Shown: positions 4,957 to 43,223 of the stretch, piece by piece
Layout: every line of letters starts with the position of its first letter
How positions within the stretch are numbered: position 1 is the stretch's first letter
Assembly: GCA_028874315.1 (NCBI GenBank)
Contig: JAPPKM010000141.1
Span: 1-54,778, forward strand
From: Chloroflexota bacterium
GTDB lineage: Bacteria > Chloroflexota > UBA11872
Reading direction: 5' to 3'
DNA: 54,778 bases
Notes under the pieces: generated by a model
Database searches by the model: none
Told to the model about the DNA's origin: nothing
Seen by the model: only the letters and a program-made list of their open reading frames with translations
Position numbers and translations under genes: made by a program

Positions 4957-5060
4957 CGATTCTTCATCTCGTCGCTGGATGTTTAAACCACGTCTCCGAA
5001 CGTCTTTCAACCATGTGTCCGGTCTGGACACCCAAAGGGAGAAGGGGAACGAGCGGCTCC
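4957..5060 (+). repeat. ~100 bp repeat with IS-end-like motif (taaaccacgtctccgaac...aaccatgtgtccggtctggacaccc), copy 1
   Basis: Aligns with 6998-7096 in the same orientation. Confidence 0.7.
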
Positions 5061-5094
5061 GCCTTCGAGGTCGAGGGTCGTTATGCAGAGGTCT

Positions 5095-5703
5095 CTACCA
5101 GGTGGGGTGGGGCGGTGGGAAGGGTGGGGCGTAGGGCCAGGGTTTGGTGCGCTGGGTGTCGCGGAATCGGGTTTCGTGGCGCCAGAGGACGTGGTGCCAG
5201 TCGGGGCGGCGGGGTTGCACGCCGTGTTCCTGGATGAGGTGCCAGACGATCTGTTCGAGGGTGATGCGGCGGGCGGGAAGGTGGAGGCGTGAGAACGGCT
5301 TTTGGCCGGGGTAGTGGCGCGGCGCGGCATGCACATGCAGGTGGCAGCGGGGATAGCCAGACGGCACCTCCCGCTGGTAGTGGTACTCGAACACCGGACG
5401 CGGATCGTCAAGGTCGGCGCCAGACTGGTAGGTGAACGTGGCATCCGTTGTTTCAAGGCGTAACGGGTTGTGGATCACCCGCAGTGCGATTTGAACGTTC
5501 AAGTACATCCCATTGCTGAGCGGGGCCGGCTGCCCGCGGCGCGAGGACCGACTTGCCCTGTGGCCGACGATTAGGACATCCGTGTCCCCACCAAGCCACA
5601 CATCGCCGAGCTCCGTAGCCGCGACAAGTTTGTAGACCTCGCGAATACGGCGAAGGAAGTCTCTGGCGGCTCGCCGGCTGCTAGGTCTGGCTGGGTTGAT
5701 CAA
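5095..5703 (-). CDS. Conserved-looking hypothetical protein, possible toxin of a bicistronic TA-like pair
   Basis: FEYHYQREVPSGYPRCHLHVHAAPRHYP...RLHLPARRITLEQIVWHLIQEHGV; overlaps the upstream small ORF by 23 bp. Confidence 0.55.
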   Translation of the reverse strand: MINPARPSSRRAARDFLRRIREVYKLVAATELGDVWLGGDTDVLIVGHRASRSSRRGQPAPLSNGMYLNVQIALRVIHNPLRLETTDATFTYQSGADLDDPRPVFEYHYQREVPSGYPRCHLHVHAAPRHYPGQKPFSRLHLPARRITLEQIVWHLIQEHGVQPRRPDWHHVLWRHETRFRDTQRTKPWPYAPPFPPPHPTW

Positions 5704-37651: not shown

Positions 37652-38521
37652 ATGGCGATCGCAGAGACCGAGGTCGTACCGCAGACCGAACTCCTGGACG
37701 TGCATCAGATGGCGCGGTTCGTAACCGACGGGTTCATCGAGTTCGACGACCTGGTGCCGGACGAACTGAGCGAAGCCGTCCACGCCGACGAAGTGGCATC
37801 GGTCAACGAGGACGGCCCCATTCCCGAGGTGCGCTGGCACATCACCGACAACCCGCACGGCTTCTACGAGCGGTCCGCCGCCGTGCGCGCCGTGCACAAC
37901 CTGCCGCGCGTGAAGGCTGTCCTGCAGAGCCTGCTGGGCCCCGGACACGTGGCCAGCCACTCGGCCCTGCACTGCACCGGGCCGCTACAGGCGACGGCGC
38001 AGCAGTGGCACGTGGACGCCGGCGGACGTCGCCAGGTGCGACTGCCCGGCGTCCATCCCTGGTCGTTCGACATCCTCACCGCCTACTTCGCCCACGACAC
38101 CCCGCACGAGATGGGTCCCACGCTGGTGCTGCCCGGCTCGCACATGCGCTCCGTGCTCGGTCCGGACGTCGCTCGCTACAAGAACATCGCCGGTCAGAAG
38201 CGCTTGTCAGGCAAAGCCGGGCGCATCGTGTTCATGCACGAAGCGCTCTGGCACTGCGCCCAGACCAACGAGATCGATCAGTGGCGGTTCATGTTCAAGA
38301 TTCGCTACAACCCCCGCGTCCCGCAGCGCGGCATCTTCAACACCGACGGCTGGGACAGCGAGGAAATCCGGCGCTTCTTCCGCATGAACAAGAACGCCCA
38401 TAACCTGACGGGTGAATCCTCGGCCGCCGCCCAGGAACGCGCCGACTGGTGGCGCTACCTCTGCGGCGCCGACGAACTCGCCGACCCCAGCGGGACTGGG
38501 GCCCACGGGGACTACGCGTAG
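37652..38521 (+). CDS. Phytanoyl-CoA dioxygenase family protein
   Basis: QQWHVDAGGRRQVRL...MGPTLVLPGSHMRSVLG...GRIVFMHEALWHCAQTN. Confidence 0.88.
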   Translation: MAIAETEVVPQTELLDVHQMARFVTDGFIEFDDLVPDELSEAVHADEVASVNEDGPIPEVRWHITDNPHGFYERSAAVRAVHNLPRVKAVLQSLLGPGHVASHSALHCTGPLQATAQQWHVDAGGRRQVRLPGVHPWSFDILTAYFAHDTPHEMGPTLVLPGSHMRSVLGPDVARYKNIAGQKRLSGKAGRIVFMHEALWHCAQTNEIDQWRFMFKIRYNPRVPQRGIFNTDGWDSEEIRRFFRMNKNAHNLTGESSAAAQERADWWRYLCGADELADPSGTGAHGDYA

Positions 38522-38544
38522 GCACGGGGTTCCAGCGCCGACGT

Positions 38545-38572
38545 TTGACGACGCGGGCGATTTGCCTAGAAT
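38545..38572 (+). promoter_or_regulatory. Sigma70-like promoter TTGACG-N16-TAGAAT
   Basis: Direct reading; predicted TSS ~38579, immediately before the structured element. Confidence 0.6.
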
Positions 38573-38578
38573 CTGCAC

Positions 38579-38673
38579 ATTACAGCCCGCTGGCGGTTAG
38601 CTCCCGGCCGAACTGGGTGGACTCCGCCGGCAGTGATAGCTCCAGGGGCCGCGTTGCAAGACGCGGCCCCTGC
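38579..38673 (+). ncRNA. Candidate structured RNA/leader, copy 1 (P1 38589-38596/38624-38631; P2 38603-38607/38613-38617; P3 38644-38654/38661-38671)
   Basis: Three stems; covarying second copy at 40436-40530. Confidence 0.6.
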
Positions 38674-38733
38674 TCTGCTTTCGGGCATGAGCCGTAAGGA
38701 GCTTCTCGCTCCTGCTTCAAGGGGCGTCCACAC

Positions 38734-39363
38734 ATGCTGGGCAATCACACGGAACCCGGTCCAGGCAACCGAATTCGGATATTCGTCGACTACTGGAATC
38801 TTCAGTTGACCATGAGCGAAAAGAGCGGGAAGTCGTTCAGGTTCGACTGGAACCGCTTCCCGCTGTGGCTAACCGAAATAGCTACCGAGCTTTGCTACAT
38901 CCGAGACGCTACTTTCGAAGGTATGCATGTCTATTCGTCCTACAACTCAGATTCACAAAAGGACCTCAACCACAAGCGCTGGGCACAGGGCTGGCTAAAT
39001 CGCCAACCGGGAGTCCAAGTGTCACTTCGTGAGCGTCAGCACAGGCCAGCCCCTTCCTGTCCAAACTGCTATCACGTAATCGGCGTGTGTCCCGCATGCA
39101 ATAGGAGAATGAGTGGCACCACCGAGAAAGGCGTCGACACGGCAATTGCAACAGACATGATTCGCCTGGCCTGGGAGCAGGTCTACGATGTTGCCGTGCT
39201 TGTGTCGTCCGACGCTGATCTCATTCCAGCCGTAGAGTTCTTGGACTTGCGAGGCCGAAAGGTGCTACAGGAGGATTCCCGCCCTTGGGCAGCGCGCTCG
39301 CAACCGCGTGCTGGGCGTCGTTCGACTTGTTTGGTAGGCGTGTTGAGTTCGAGCGATGAGTGA
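38734..39363 (+). CDS. NYN-domain (LabA-like PIN nuclease) protein, C-terminus frameshifted
   Basis: RIRIFVDYWNLQLTM...KGVDTAIATDMIRLAWEQVYDVAVLVSSDADLIPAVEFLDLRGRKV; -1 frame continues GGFPPLGSALATACWASFDLFGRRVEFER. Confidence 0.85.
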   Translation: MLGNHTEPGPGNRIRIFVDYWNLQLTMSEKSGKSFRFDWNRFPLWLTEIATELCYIRDATFEGMHVYSSYNSDSQKDLNHKRWAQGWLNRQPGVQVSLRERQHRPAPSCPNCYHVIGVCPACNRRMSGTTEKGVDTAIATDMIRLAWEQVYDVAVLVSSDADLIPAVEFLDLRGRKVLQEDSRPWAARSQPRAGRRSTCLVGVLSSSDE

Positions 39364-39432
39364 AGGTCGATCAGCTAGTGACGGCTGAGATGCAGCGGTC
39401 GTGCGAGCAGTAGTCTGGAGGCGACGAGGGCA

Positions 39433-40362
39433 ATGACCAACGCAAGCCTAGGCACACTCAGGCACGTAGAGGTTCGGCAGGCTTGGGCACACGAGGCCCG
39501 CGACTTCACACCTTGGCTGTCGGAGAACCTTGAGGTGCTGTCTGCTGAGCTTGGGATCGCCCTCGAGCTCGAAGACACAGAAGTCGCGGTCGGGCCGGAC
39601 CAGTATCGGGCGGACATTCTGGCGCGGGCTCCTCACGACGGCAGCGTGGTGCTCATCGAAAACCAACTGGAGGAGGCCAACCTCGAACACTTGGGCCAGG
39701 TGTTGGCCTATTTGGCAGGACTGAACGCTCAGATCGTCGTGTGGGTCGCTACTCGGTTCCGAGAGGGACATCTGTCCGCAATCCGGTGGCTGAACGAGCA
39801 CACGGACGACCCATTCGCGTTTTTTGCGGTACGCCTGAGCGTAGTTCAGATCGGCGATTCGCAGCTCGCCCCGGTACTCAACGTCCTAGAGCGACCGAAC
39901 GAATGGGACCGTCAAGTTGAGAGAGTGAGCGGGCTTTCCGACATTGCAAAGTTCCGGCGCGACTTCTGGACTCACTTTGTGTCCCGACGCCCAGACTCAC
40001 CCCGGCTGAGTCCCGGATACATGGGCAGCAACGTCTGGCACTGGATCGAGGAGGCTGAACTCTACGTTGTTCAGTACTTGGCCCAGAACAGTGTCGGAGT
40101 ATATCTACGGGGCGCGTGGGGCACGACCAAGGCAAGCACTTGGCCTCAGCTGGATCCGTACGTGGAGCTCCTTGAGAAGAGACTTCGTGAAGCAGAGGCT
40201 GAAGACGGCTACGTCCGGGATAGCGGACATCATTGGTGCGTGACGACCCTGCGGGTTGACTCTCGCGACACAGACAACTGGGATCAAATGGCCGATTGGC
40301 TCGACAAGCGGCGGCATGTTTACGAAGTCGTGCTACGTGCCGACTCCGGACCGGCAGCCTAA
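39433..40362 (+). CDS. DUF4268-like / PD-(D/E)XK nuclease-like protein
   Basis: YRADILARAPHDGSVVLIENQLEEANLEHLGQVLAYLAGLNAQIVVWVATRFREGHLSAIRWLNEHT. Confidence 0.75.
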   Translation: MTNASLGTLRHVEVRQAWAHEARDFTPWLSENLEVLSAELGIALELEDTEVAVGPDQYRADILARAPHDGSVVLIENQLEEANLEHLGQVLAYLAGLNAQIVVWVATRFREGHLSAIRWLNEHTDDPFAFFAVRLSVVQIGDSQLAPVLNVLERPNEWDRQVERVSGLSDIAKFRRDFWTHFVSRRPDSPRLSPGYMGSNVWHWIEEAELYVVQYLAQNSVGVYLRGAWGTTKASTWPQLDPYVELLEKRLREAEAEDGYVRDSGHHWCVTTLRVDSRDTDNWDQMADWLDKRRHVYEVVLRADSGPAA

Positions 40363-40435
40363 AGGCGTCCTAGCCAACTGAAGGAGGTAAGAGCGTGCAG
40401 GATGAAGGACCGGCCCTTCGGCCTACCGTTCAGAC

Positions 40436-40530
40436 ATAAGACCCCACTGGTGGTTAGCTCCCAGCCAAACTGGGTGGGATCCGCCTGTCACTAGAGCGCT
40501 AGGGACCGTGTCGTGTGCCACGGTCCCTGC
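40436..40530 (+). ncRNA. Candidate structured RNA, copy 2 (P1 40446-40453/40481-40488; P2 40460-40464/40470-40474; P3 40501-40510/40519-40528)
   Basis: Same architecture and spacing as copy 1, with compensatory changes in P3. Confidence 0.55.
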
Positions 40531-40576
40531 GACGTCTATGGGTCGATCTTGTCCGCCACCGCGACGGAGAGGCTAG

Positions 40577-42151
40577 CTACCCGCTGACATCCACCACGAT
40601 GGTGTGGTGACCCGTCGCGCCATCGGGGTCGGATGAGCTGATCTGGGCGGTCTGGGTTTCGCCGGTGGCGTCGGTGGCGCGGACGGCGATGACGTGCCTG
40701 CCAGGCGTGGCGTCCCAGGGCAGCACCCACTGGCGCCAGGTGTCCTTGGATATTGCCTCGCCTAGCTGCGTCTCCTGCCAGCCGCCGTCACCAATCTGGA
40801 CCTCGACTTTGGCGATGCCCCGGTCTTGGGCCCAGGCCACGCCGGCGATGGGCTGGAGACCCGGTTGCAACGTGCGGCCATTAAGCGGCACGTCGATCCG
40901 CGACTGCGTCTTGATCGGTCCTTCCTTGGACCAGCCGCGCGGAATCCAGTAGCCGTCGAATTCCTCCCACCGGTTCACCACGATCGCGTCCAGCCATTTC
41001 GTGGCCGAGACGTAGCCGTAGAGACCCGCCACGACCAGCCGGGCCGGAAAGCCATGCTTCAGCGGCAGCGGCTCATCGTTCATGCCCACGGCCACCAGCG
41101 CCTGGCGCCCGTCGTAGACGGTGTCCACCGGGAACCCGGCGGTGAAGCCGTCCACGGACATGCCGACGATCTGGCTGGCCTCCGGCTGCAACCCCGCGCG
41201 ATCCAGCAACTCCGACAGCGGCACGCCCAGCCACTTGGCGTTATCTACCAGGTCGCCGCCAACCTCGTTGGAGACGCAACACAAGGTGACGTGCCGCTCG
41301 ACGCGCGAGAGGTCGAGCAGCTCGTCGTAGGTCAGCTCGTAGGGCCGGTCCACCAGGCCCTCGATCTTGAGGGTCCACGTAGACAAGTCGACCTGGGGAA
41401 TGCTGAGGGCCGTGTCGATCCGGTAGAAGTCCTCGTTGGGCGTGACGATCGGGCCGATGCCCTCGGCTTCGACCATCGCGCCCTCGGGAATCTGCCTCGC
41501 GGCGTCGCGCGGCGCGGGGAGAATCACGTCCAGCCGGCTGGAGGCGATGGTGCGCGCCCGCTCCAGCATCACCCGCCCACCGGCCGCGGTCCCGACCGCC
41601 AGGACCGCAAACGCCCCGGCCATTCGCATGAAGGAGCGGCGGCCGAGCGCCATCAGGCGCGGGTCGCGAACGGGCTGTGGCATTTCCTGCGCTTGCACGA
41701 GCTTCAGCAGCATCGCCAGCGTCCACATGCCGGCCGAAGTCGCCAGCAGGGCGCCGATCAGGGCCAGCACGGGCGAAAGCTGCGGCTCGGCGATTCCGGC
41801 CACGGCGGCCACGATTCCGAACACCGCAAAGCCAAGCTGCGGGATCCAGAATTTCCGCATCCCGGCCACGCCGACAAGTGCTCCCAGGCCAAGGCCGATT
41901 ACGACAATCGAAATCAGCAGCGCCAGCTTGTCGTTGGTGCCGAATACAGCAATCGCGAAGTCCTTGGCGAACTTCGGCGACAGGTCAATCACGCCCGAGC
42001 CCACCGCGATGATGAGCGACGGACCGCCGGATATCAGTCCGGCGAAGATCTCGGTAATTCCAAATGACACGCCGGCGGCAATCAGGCCGGCCAATGCCGG
42101 GCGCGACTCGCGCCTGAGCACGGGACCTAGTCCCTTACGAGCGTCGTACAT
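40577..42151 (-). CDS. Sulfite oxidase-like molybdopterin-dependent oxidoreductase with N-terminal TM region
   Basis: RPYELTYDELLDLSRVERHVTLCCVSNEVGGDLVDNAKWLGVPLSELLDRAG...FPARLVVAGLYGYVSATKWL. Confidence 0.92.
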   Translation of the reverse strand: MYDARKGLGPVLRRESRPALAGLIAAGVSFGITEIFAGLISGGPSLIIAVGSGVIDLSPKFAKDFAIAVFGTNDKLALLISIVVIGLGLGALVGVAGMRKFWIPQLGFAVFGIVAAVAGIAEPQLSPVLALIGALLATSAGMWTLAMLLKLVQAQEMPQPVRDPRLMALGRRSFMRMAGAFAVLAVGTAAGGRVMLERARTIASSRLDVILPAPRDAARQIPEGAMVEAEGIGPIVTPNEDFYRIDTALSIPQVDLSTWTLKIEGLVDRPYELTYDELLDLSRVERHVTLCCVSNEVGGDLVDNAKWLGVPLSELLDRAGLQPEASQIVGMSVDGFTAGFPVDTVYDGRQALVAVGMNDEPLPLKHGFPARLVVAGLYGYVSATKWLDAIVVNRWEEFDGYWIPRGWSKEGPIKTQSRIDVPLNGRTLQPGLQPIAGVAWAQDRGIAKVEVQIGDGGWQETQLGEAISKDTWRQWVLPWDATPGRHVIAVRATDATGETQTAQISSSDPDGATGHHTIVVDVSG

Positions 42152-42236
42152 GCTTGCGCTCCCCCTTGAGCCCTCGCACTCAGGATACGCGCCCTGCGCC
42201 TGTCGAGTTGGTGGGTTTTCCTGCTTTGGGAGGCAG

Positions 42237-43223
42237 TTAGCCTCGAAGCCGGCGGGCCAACGGGCTGGCCGTGCGGTAGGCGCGCGATGCGGCGTCCAGT
42301 TCGCGCAGGGCTTCTTCATCCATTTCGATCATCGCGGCGTCGGCATTGGACTCCGCCTGGCCGGCCGTGCGTGCGCCCACGATGGGTAGCACTGCCGAGT
42401 CCCGCAGCGTCCAGGCCACGGCGACCTGCCCGGCTGTGGCTCCGACCGAATCGGCGACTCGCCGAAGGGTGTCGAGCAAGGGCATCACGGTCTCCGGCGT
42501 CTTGGCCCGCAAGACCCGGCGCATGGGACGCGAGCGCGGCTTGCGTCCGCCCGGTCCGTACTTGCCGCTCAGCAAACCCTGGGCCAGGGGGCTGTAGGCG
42601 ATCAGCGTGACATCCAGTTCGTGACAGGCGTCCAGCACGCCGTTCACCTCGGGCGCACGGCGCAGCAGGCTGTACGACACCTGGTTCGAGACGAGCGGAA
42701 CCCCCGCATCGGCCAGCACCGCGTGGGCGCGTCGCATTTGCGGTTCGGTGAAGTTGCTGACGCCGACATAGGCGATGCGGCCGTCGTGGACGGCCCGAGC
42801 CAGACGGTCTAGCAGGCGGCGGTGCGGGATAAAGCTGTACGGCCAGTGCACCTGGTAGTGATCGATCCGGTCGACGCCCAGGCGCTTGAGGCTGCCGTCG
42901 ATGGCGGCGTCCACGGAGCGCACGCGCCAGCGCGTGGGCGAGGGCATGTACTTGGTCGCTACCACGGCCGGCCGGGAGTCGTCCGTGCGTAGCTTTCCGA
43001 TCACTCGTTCCGACTCGCCGAAGCCGTAAAGCTCGGCGGTGTCGAGGAAGTTGGCGCCTCGATCCAGCGTCGCGTGGTACGTGGCGTCGATGTCGGTGGG
43101 TTCCTGGCCGTCGTGATCGTCCCAGTAGCGTTGGTCGCCCCACTGCCAGGTTCCGACGCCGACAGCGCCGACTTCCAGGTCCGAGGCGCCAATGCGACGA
43201 CGCGGGATACGGTCGTCAATCAT
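42237..43223 (-). CDS. Aldo/keto reductase
   Basis: FLDTAELYGFGESERVIGK...DHYQVHWP...VGVSNFTEPQM. Confidence 0.95.
   Translation of the reverse strand: MIDDRIPRRRIGASDLEVGAVGVGTWQWGDQRYWDDHDGQEPTDIDATYHATLDRGANFLDTAELYGFGESERVIGKLRTDDSRPAVVATKYMPSPTRWRVRSVDAAIDGSLKRLGVDRIDHYQVHWPYSFIPHRRLLDRLARAVHDGRIAYVGVSNFTEPQMRRAHAVLADAGVPLVSNQVSYSLLRRAPEVNGVLDACHELDVTLIAYSPLAQGLLSGKYGPGGRKPRSRPMRRVLRAKTPETVMPLLDTLRRVADSVGATAGQVAVAWTLRDSAVLPIVGARTAGQAESNADAAMIEMDEEALRELDAASRAYRTASPLARRLRG

Follow-up and report, generated by a model that had tools for sequence, protein, structure and literature searches.

Introduction

Type III antitoxins are repeat RNAs, and a leaky terminator lies between the RNA and the RNase toxin (PMC5086642). 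In ToxIN, CptIN and TenpIN, one promoter is followed by an RNA gene, a terminator and an RNase gene, and these repeat-based systems occur on both plasmids and chromosomes (PMC5086642). The RNA of the AbiF-RCd22 system is roughly 100-132 nt long and has a SigA promoter, a Rho-independent terminator and two repeated motifs (PMC12373285). The RNA begins 168 nt ahead of the toxin gene and acts by binding the toxin directly, which neutralises it (PMC12373285). NYN RNases cut single-stranded RNA; one of them is CRISPR-associated, belongs to a type III locus and trims crRNA (PMC11346440).

The RNA-controlled RNase toxins described so far have ToxN-like and HEPN (AbiF) folds. Here we analyse a stretch of 54,778 nucleotides from a Chloroflexota bacterium (contig JAPPKM010000141.1, forward strand), called the window below, in which a structured RNA lies beside a NYN-domain RNase gene. 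Like AbiF-RCd22 (RF03085), the RNA is short, promoter-driven and terminator-ended, sits just upstream of an RNase gene on mobile DNA, contains two repeated structured motifs and is expected to be a discrete transcript. The partner here is a NYN protein with a PIN-like fold, whereas the partner there is a HEPN Abi_2 protein (Abi_2/AbiD/F). In sequence and fold, the RNA matches neither RF03085 nor any other Rfam family, it can be divergent or convergent to the gene, and an antitoxin role is proposed for it by analogy. It resembles ToxIN, CptIN and TenpIN in part: its hosts include plasmids and chromosomes, the order of promoter, RNA, terminator and RNase gene is seen at 14 of 18 loci, and the RNA repeats a motif-plus-hairpin unit once. 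It differs from them in its protein, which Pfam and PADLOC assign to NYN and not to the ToxN/Kid fold, in the number of units, theirs being a longer tandem array of pseudoknots, and in its variable orientation (3 divergent, 1 convergent). The CRISPR-associated enzyme is likewise a NYN-domain RNase linked to a small RNA, but the NYN genes described here are paired with RNA genes of their own and sit on small mobile elements. No cas genes were seen among the NYN neighbourhoods that we inspected.

Searches of open-access full text found no literature on NYN together with type III systems, and none describing such an RNA-NYN pair under NYN with structured RNA or abortive infection. Nor did we find an RNA partner described for HEC-09 or PDC-S11, the PADLOC families matched by the two proteins at this locus. 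The RNA family and its linkage to NYN appear to be new, absence from the open-access literature not being proof, and the mechanism class of an RNA-restrained RNase is already known.

An inserted cassette carries a NYN gene and two RNA copies

The inserted segment, about 2.05 kb with approximate ends (38522..40576), lies between a convergent PhyH-family gene (37652..38521, + strand) and a molybdopterin sulfite-oxidase-like gene (40577..42319, - strand), both outside the module. The gap between these two flanking genes is about 19-22 bp in nine same-genus genomes versus 2062 bp in the window. The empty site predicted in an earlier note on this DNA is therefore present in relatives. The lower GC content reported there was also confirmed, at 59.4% in the insert versus 67% in the neighbours.

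The first gene of the insert (38734..39363, +) encodes a NYN-domain RNase with a CPxC..CPxC arrangement. Its identity as NYN, first read from the sequence, was borne out by Pfam (NYN, 4e-10), by PADLOC (HEC-09, 1.8e-11) and by homolog comparison, in which D19, D135, D141, D160 and D162 are invariant in eight NYN homologs. A PDB sequence search with the NYN profile gave no match. Relative to all homologs, the frame of the window gene is shifted near 39261-39270 and the conserved C-terminal GFPPxG..CWxSFD segment falls in another frame, which may reflect decay or an assembly error. NYN is absent elsewhere in the window's genus and family, indicating that it was acquired.

The second gene (39433..40362, +) encodes a candidate defence protein that matches PADLOC PDC-S11 over residues 1-300 (7.8e-82). 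It had been described as DUF4268-like; the C-terminus does show a weak likeness, but DUF4268 itself falls below threshold (E = 0.26) and the gene is better named PDC-S11. By inspection, the N-terminal part looks like a PD-(D/E)XK variant.

The two RNA copies, both about 97 nt and on the + strand (copy 1, 38577-38673; copy 2, 40434-40530), form a gapless, in-register alignment of 97 nt in which 72% of positions are identical, in agreement with the two same-orientation copies first noticed. In a genome-wide search of the window's own genome (86.6% complete), one copy found the other with E = 1.5e-9 and there was no third copy. Identity between the copies peaks in the first hairpin and remains high in P3, past which it is no better than background. 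The alignment had been put at about 130 bp; it holds for the 97-nt transcript (38577-38673) but not for the 37 nt upstream, which are only 46% identical. The shared piece thus begins near the predicted transcription start and stops where the P3 hairpin ends, so that its extent is that of a transcript and not of a promoter plus transcript.

A structured RNA family built from two tandem units

In copy 1, a single-stranded motif placed from the aligned family (CATTACAGCCC, 38578..38588, +) is followed by the unit 1 hairpin (38589..38631, +), which rests on the fold and on five P1 base pairs that covary in 14 homologs. This hairpin consists of P1 (38589-38596 with 38624-38631) and, internal to it, P2 (38603-38607 with 38613-38617). 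The unit 2 motif (AGTGATAGCTC, 38632..38642, +) is a tandem repeat of the unit 1 motif and leads into the terminator-like hairpin P3 (38643..38672, +), placed from the fold and the family alignment. The corresponding elements of copy 2 (40435..40529, +) were found by the family model R3, described below. They comprise the first motif at 40435-40445, P1 at 40446-40453 with 40481-40488, the second motif at 40489-40499 and P3 at 40500-40529.

Between the copies, 22 of 24 pairs are pairable in both and three are altered on both sides. Two of these are the double compensatory swaps in P3, as the earlier note had them, and the outer P1 pair is the third. When the same changes were placed at random, equal pairing together with the double swaps was rare (joint P about 0.0014-0.0016). 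P1 and P2 had been proposed for both copies. For copy 2 alone, the P1/P2 pairs have a probability of 0.01-0.07 and a different fold has the lowest energy; support for the base of P1 comes from the family and not from this one sequence. Because copy 2 by itself does not favour this fold, the structure is not settled by two sequences.

The family provides a larger sample. In an alignment of 14 members cut to helix bases, which was laid with the helices in view and thus favours covariation, 10 of 11 core pairs change on both sides and 99.4% of cells are paired. None of 500 shuffles reached this level, and pairing dropped to 35-54% in slid-partner controls. An unguided MAFFT alignment of seven members contained 7 double-changed pairs (0/500 shuffles).

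We also compared the 11-mers that precede P1 and P3. Within each RNA, they are 66% identical in register and 12-36% identical at other offsets, a likeness reached by none of 20,000 column permutations. The two 11-mers agree at 10 of 11 positions in Novacetimonas and in L146. These data indicate that the RNA is a tandem of two units, in each of which a single-stranded 11-mer with the consensus YATnAnnRCCC precedes a hairpin. Across the family the RNA is about 80-110 nt long.

The earlier note could match the fold to no riboswitch, ribozyme or sRNA class, and Rfam gave no family for the RNA in the window or at five homologous loci. At the gathering score, Rfam 15 recovered only tRNAs in the window and nothing real in the five loci, and permissive thresholds gave chance matches only. 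Neither copy matched the abiF RNA model even with E relaxed to 5, nor did the five loci at E up to 0.1. A T-box leader was considered for the GGGTGG..CCGC segment, which is similar by eye, and was rejected for want of an Rfam match and because there is too little upstream transcript. An integron attC site (RYYYAAC ... GTTRRRY) was rejected by inspection: the box order is wrong and the consensus is unmatched on either strand.

The RNA accompanies NYN genes in three orientations

The earlier note had proposed looking for more covarying copies beside the gene. We found a related RNA at 18 of the 19 NYN loci of the window's NYN subfamily; the exception is L152, the most distant NYN (31%). The 19 loci come from Chloroflexota (G025, G029, G033, G034, G353, G387 and the window), from small alpha- and gammaproteobacterial plasmids and from IMG/VR contigs. 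The plasmids are those of Pararoseomonas (11.8 kb), Novacetimonas (6.3 kb), Paracoccus (12.4 kb), Aeromonas (11.8 kb) and Cobetia (8.5 kb), and NYN is also found on an integrase-bearing contig. Plasmid hosts include Novacetimonas hansenii C110 (pKHC110_1). The RNA lies sense-upstream of NYN at 14 loci, divergent at three (Aeromonas, Cobetia and L149) and antisense downstream, that is convergent, at one (G034). The other RNA-bearing loci have one RNA copy per NYN and no pair, and IS200/IS605-like hairpin ends were rejected on this account. When read directly, the upstream DNA of other NYN homologs has the same layout as the window. After a promoter comes an AT-rich 11-mer that ends in CCC, then P1, whose apical part varies, then another 11-mer and the GC-rich P3 hairpin, in most cases with a T-rich tail.

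Model searches gave a consistent picture. A model built from the two window copies scored 39.6 bits on the IMG/VR contig L137, immediately ahead of a NYN gene with 44% identity; as a chance match of similar score occurred in 400 genomes (G090), we judged the L137 match by its position. Model R2, trained on seven proteobacterial-type RNA members only, recovered G353, G034, L137, Cobetia, Aeromonas and G387 (E 5e-7 to 0.02) and L149 (E 0.15), all beside NYN. It had no matches at 18 PDC-S11 control loci and did not recover the window copies, which are too divergent. Model R3 (14 members, collapsed loops, cut-off E <= 0.01) matched six of 400 Chloroflexota genomes, every one beside NYN, and a NYN profile identified seven NYN genomes among the same 400. 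Five of the six matched genomes had been in the R3 training set (G033 had not), so the informative part is the absence of matches in the other genomes. Two RNA-only DNA patterns matched five of 2.9 million IMG/VR contigs, and all five were known NYN contigs. No further close copies of the window RNA were found with the two-copy model or DNA pattern in its own genome, the 400 Chloroflexota genomes, about 85,000 GTDB genomes or IMG/VR. Apparent matches there fell in coding sequence, including leucine-rich-repeat genes, or in GC-rich terminators, and were rejected.

The RNA was absent from PDC-S11 homologs in Chloroflexota, Nitrospinota, Sphingomonadaceae and IMG/VR. We therefore rejected an association of the RNA with PDC-S11 and conclude that its partner is NYN. 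The cassette had been read as a mobile or defence module in which a structured RNA goes with a nuclease pair. The RNA does accompany a nuclease, but it belongs to NYN alone, and the window's NYN-RNA module has gained a PDC-S11 gene and a second RNA copy.

Copy 1 has a predicted sigma-70-type promoter, TTGACG-16-TAGAAT (38545..38572, +), that fits 10 of 12 consensus positions and places the RNA start about 155 nt before the NYN ATG. A promoter had been assigned to each copy; that of copy 1 is upheld, but copy 2 has a poor one (6/12). Copy 2 is also without a T tail and has no gene downstream on the same strand. The view that P3 is not a plain terminator, for lack of a T-run, was not sustained: P3 of copy 1 scores as a terminator with the tail CTCTGCTTTC, and many homologs have clearly T-rich tails. 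Nearly all homologous RNAs are preceded by a promoter-like sequence, mostly in the same place as that of copy 1, and end in a GC hairpin. Because the RNA has its own promoter even when divergent from or behind NYN, it is a gene and not only a leader. The alternative of a duplicated leader flanking the cassette is correspondingly weakened.

In two Chloroflexota genomes, the NYN gene is broken and the RNA is kept. One is the window, with its frameshift. The other is G033 (L155, contig C34, 31298-31924), in which the NYN homolog has an in-frame TAA in the conserved EKGIDT motif and the RNA is intact. Loss of NYN with retention of the RNA is expected if the protein is the costly part. Broken NYN genes also fit any non-essential gene, and assembly error may contribute.

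A putative RNA-restrained NYN ribonuclease

Our preferred reading, at a probability of about 0.55, is that the RNA is an independent small-RNA gene that travels with one NYN ribonuclease subfamily on mobile DNA, the two forming a type III-like module of RNA antitoxin and NYN RNase. Given its likeness to type III systems and AbiF-RCd22, the RNA most likely restrains the NYN RNase. The analysis establishes the RNA family with its covariation and tandem units, the predicted promoters, the association with NYN in three orientations and the mobility of the cassette, whereas toxicity of NYN, its binding and inhibition by the RNA and the biological role are inferred. A strong promoter would supply the RNA in excess, and the second hairpin would end the transcript, with only some transcripts reading through into the NYN gene. 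The two-unit RNA would bind the NYN RNase and keep it inactive. If transcription stopped or the element were lost, the NYN RNase would be freed and could serve anti-phage defence or element maintenance. Several points weigh against this. Other roles of NYN proteins include those of housekeeping and CRISPR RNases (PMC11346440), the typical RNA-terminator-toxin operon is missing at the four divergent or convergent loci, and there are two units only, versus the longer ToxI arrays.

Other readings account for parts of the data. The RNA might be the working part of a NYN complex (a scaffold, guide or activator) that attacks foreign RNA or senses infection, and not an inhibitor. This is unlikely, although it is the best placed of the alternatives. 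In its favour are the co-occurrence of RNA and nuclease whatever the orientation, the great variation of the apical region inside P1 from member to member (10-38 nt) and the matches of both NYN and PDC-S11 to defence-candidate models. That same apical region is, however, the best conserved part of the two window copies (26/29 nt), and its core is without a match elsewhere, so no guide-target pair is seen. Next in order, and also unlikely, is autoregulation, in which NYN would bind or cut the RNA and so set its own expression, the RNA being chiefly a 5' leader or attenuator. Such a role would suit the 14 of 18 RNAs that are upstream of NYN in the sense direction and whose terminator-like hairpin immediately precedes the gene, but the four divergent or downstream-antisense RNAs have their own promoters and copy 2 of the window precedes no same-strand gene. 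We give less credence than to either of these to the idea that the RNA is an obligate component of a new class of RNA-dependent nuclease, in which the two-unit RNA would direct or trigger NYN cleavage of invader RNA, in parallel to AbiF or Cas13.

It is improbable that the RNA serves maintenance or mobility (plasmid copy control, incompatibility or a folded recombination end) and is near NYN by chance. Small plasmids and inserted elements are its hosts and two direct copies bound the window cassette, as one might expect of such an RNA. However, the other loci have a single copy, and the hosts differ (replication-protein plasmids, an integrase element, chromosomal sites), with the RNA following NYN and not rep or integrase. 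Ordinary terminators or chance hairpins that form no specific RNA family are highly improbable. P3 alone does resemble the common GC-rich terminators of the genus, where weak model matches occur, but the covariation of P1, the fixed 11-nt spacing and the tandem motif contradict this explanation, as do zero family-model matches in those of the 400 Chloroflexota genomes without NYN.

If the antitoxin reading is correct, the design of an RNA-controlled RNase would have arisen again on a third nuclease fold, NYN, with an RNA family of its own. The PADLOC candidate HEC-09 would gain a function, and Rfam a family that it lacks. With a length of about 0.8 kb the module is compact; it is carried by small plasmids of culturable bacteria and yields clear predictions for RNA size, binding and toxicity.

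The insertion site and neighbouring genes

The Chloroflexi MAG CO36386bin_13 (G012) has an insert at the same place with only PDC-S11 genes, 67-68% identical to that of the window. The RNA is absent from this insert. Intergenic DNA of the two inserts shows no significant similarity, and common ancestry of that DNA was rejected on this basis. The PhyH/sulfite-oxidase-like intergenic site looks like an insertion hot spot. The G012 PDC-S11 gene lies in an exact 1254-bp tandem duplication that includes the end of PhyH (L084:200-2625, contig C204), and this duplication may be true or an assembly artefact. Across window positions 37652-42319, the PhyH protein is 100% identical to that of G009 and the sulfite-oxidase-like protein is closest to that of G011 (94%), a sequence pattern that suggests interspecies recombination at this locus.

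Near-identical intergenic hairpins of the form AGGGGCCGCGG..CCGCGGCCCCT occur in several relatives of the same genus (L013, L014, L021 and L023). They are probably a common bidirectional terminator type in the window's genus, and their recurrence in intergenic DNA explains the weak matches to P3 there.

On the Cobetia amphilecti plasmid (L145:732-1379 and 5007-5654), NYN, the RNA, MobC, MbeB and MbeD each occur twice at constant spacing, a pattern that resembles a dimeric plasmid or a duplication made during assembly. In G387 (L158), the gene downstream of NYN looks restriction-endonuclease-type, and NYN-RNA modules may thus lie beside other nucleases elsewhere too. Within the G000 family, 13 of 19 genomes encode PDC-S11-like proteins that are 40-48% identical to the window's and lie at many different sites, as expected for mobile defence genes.
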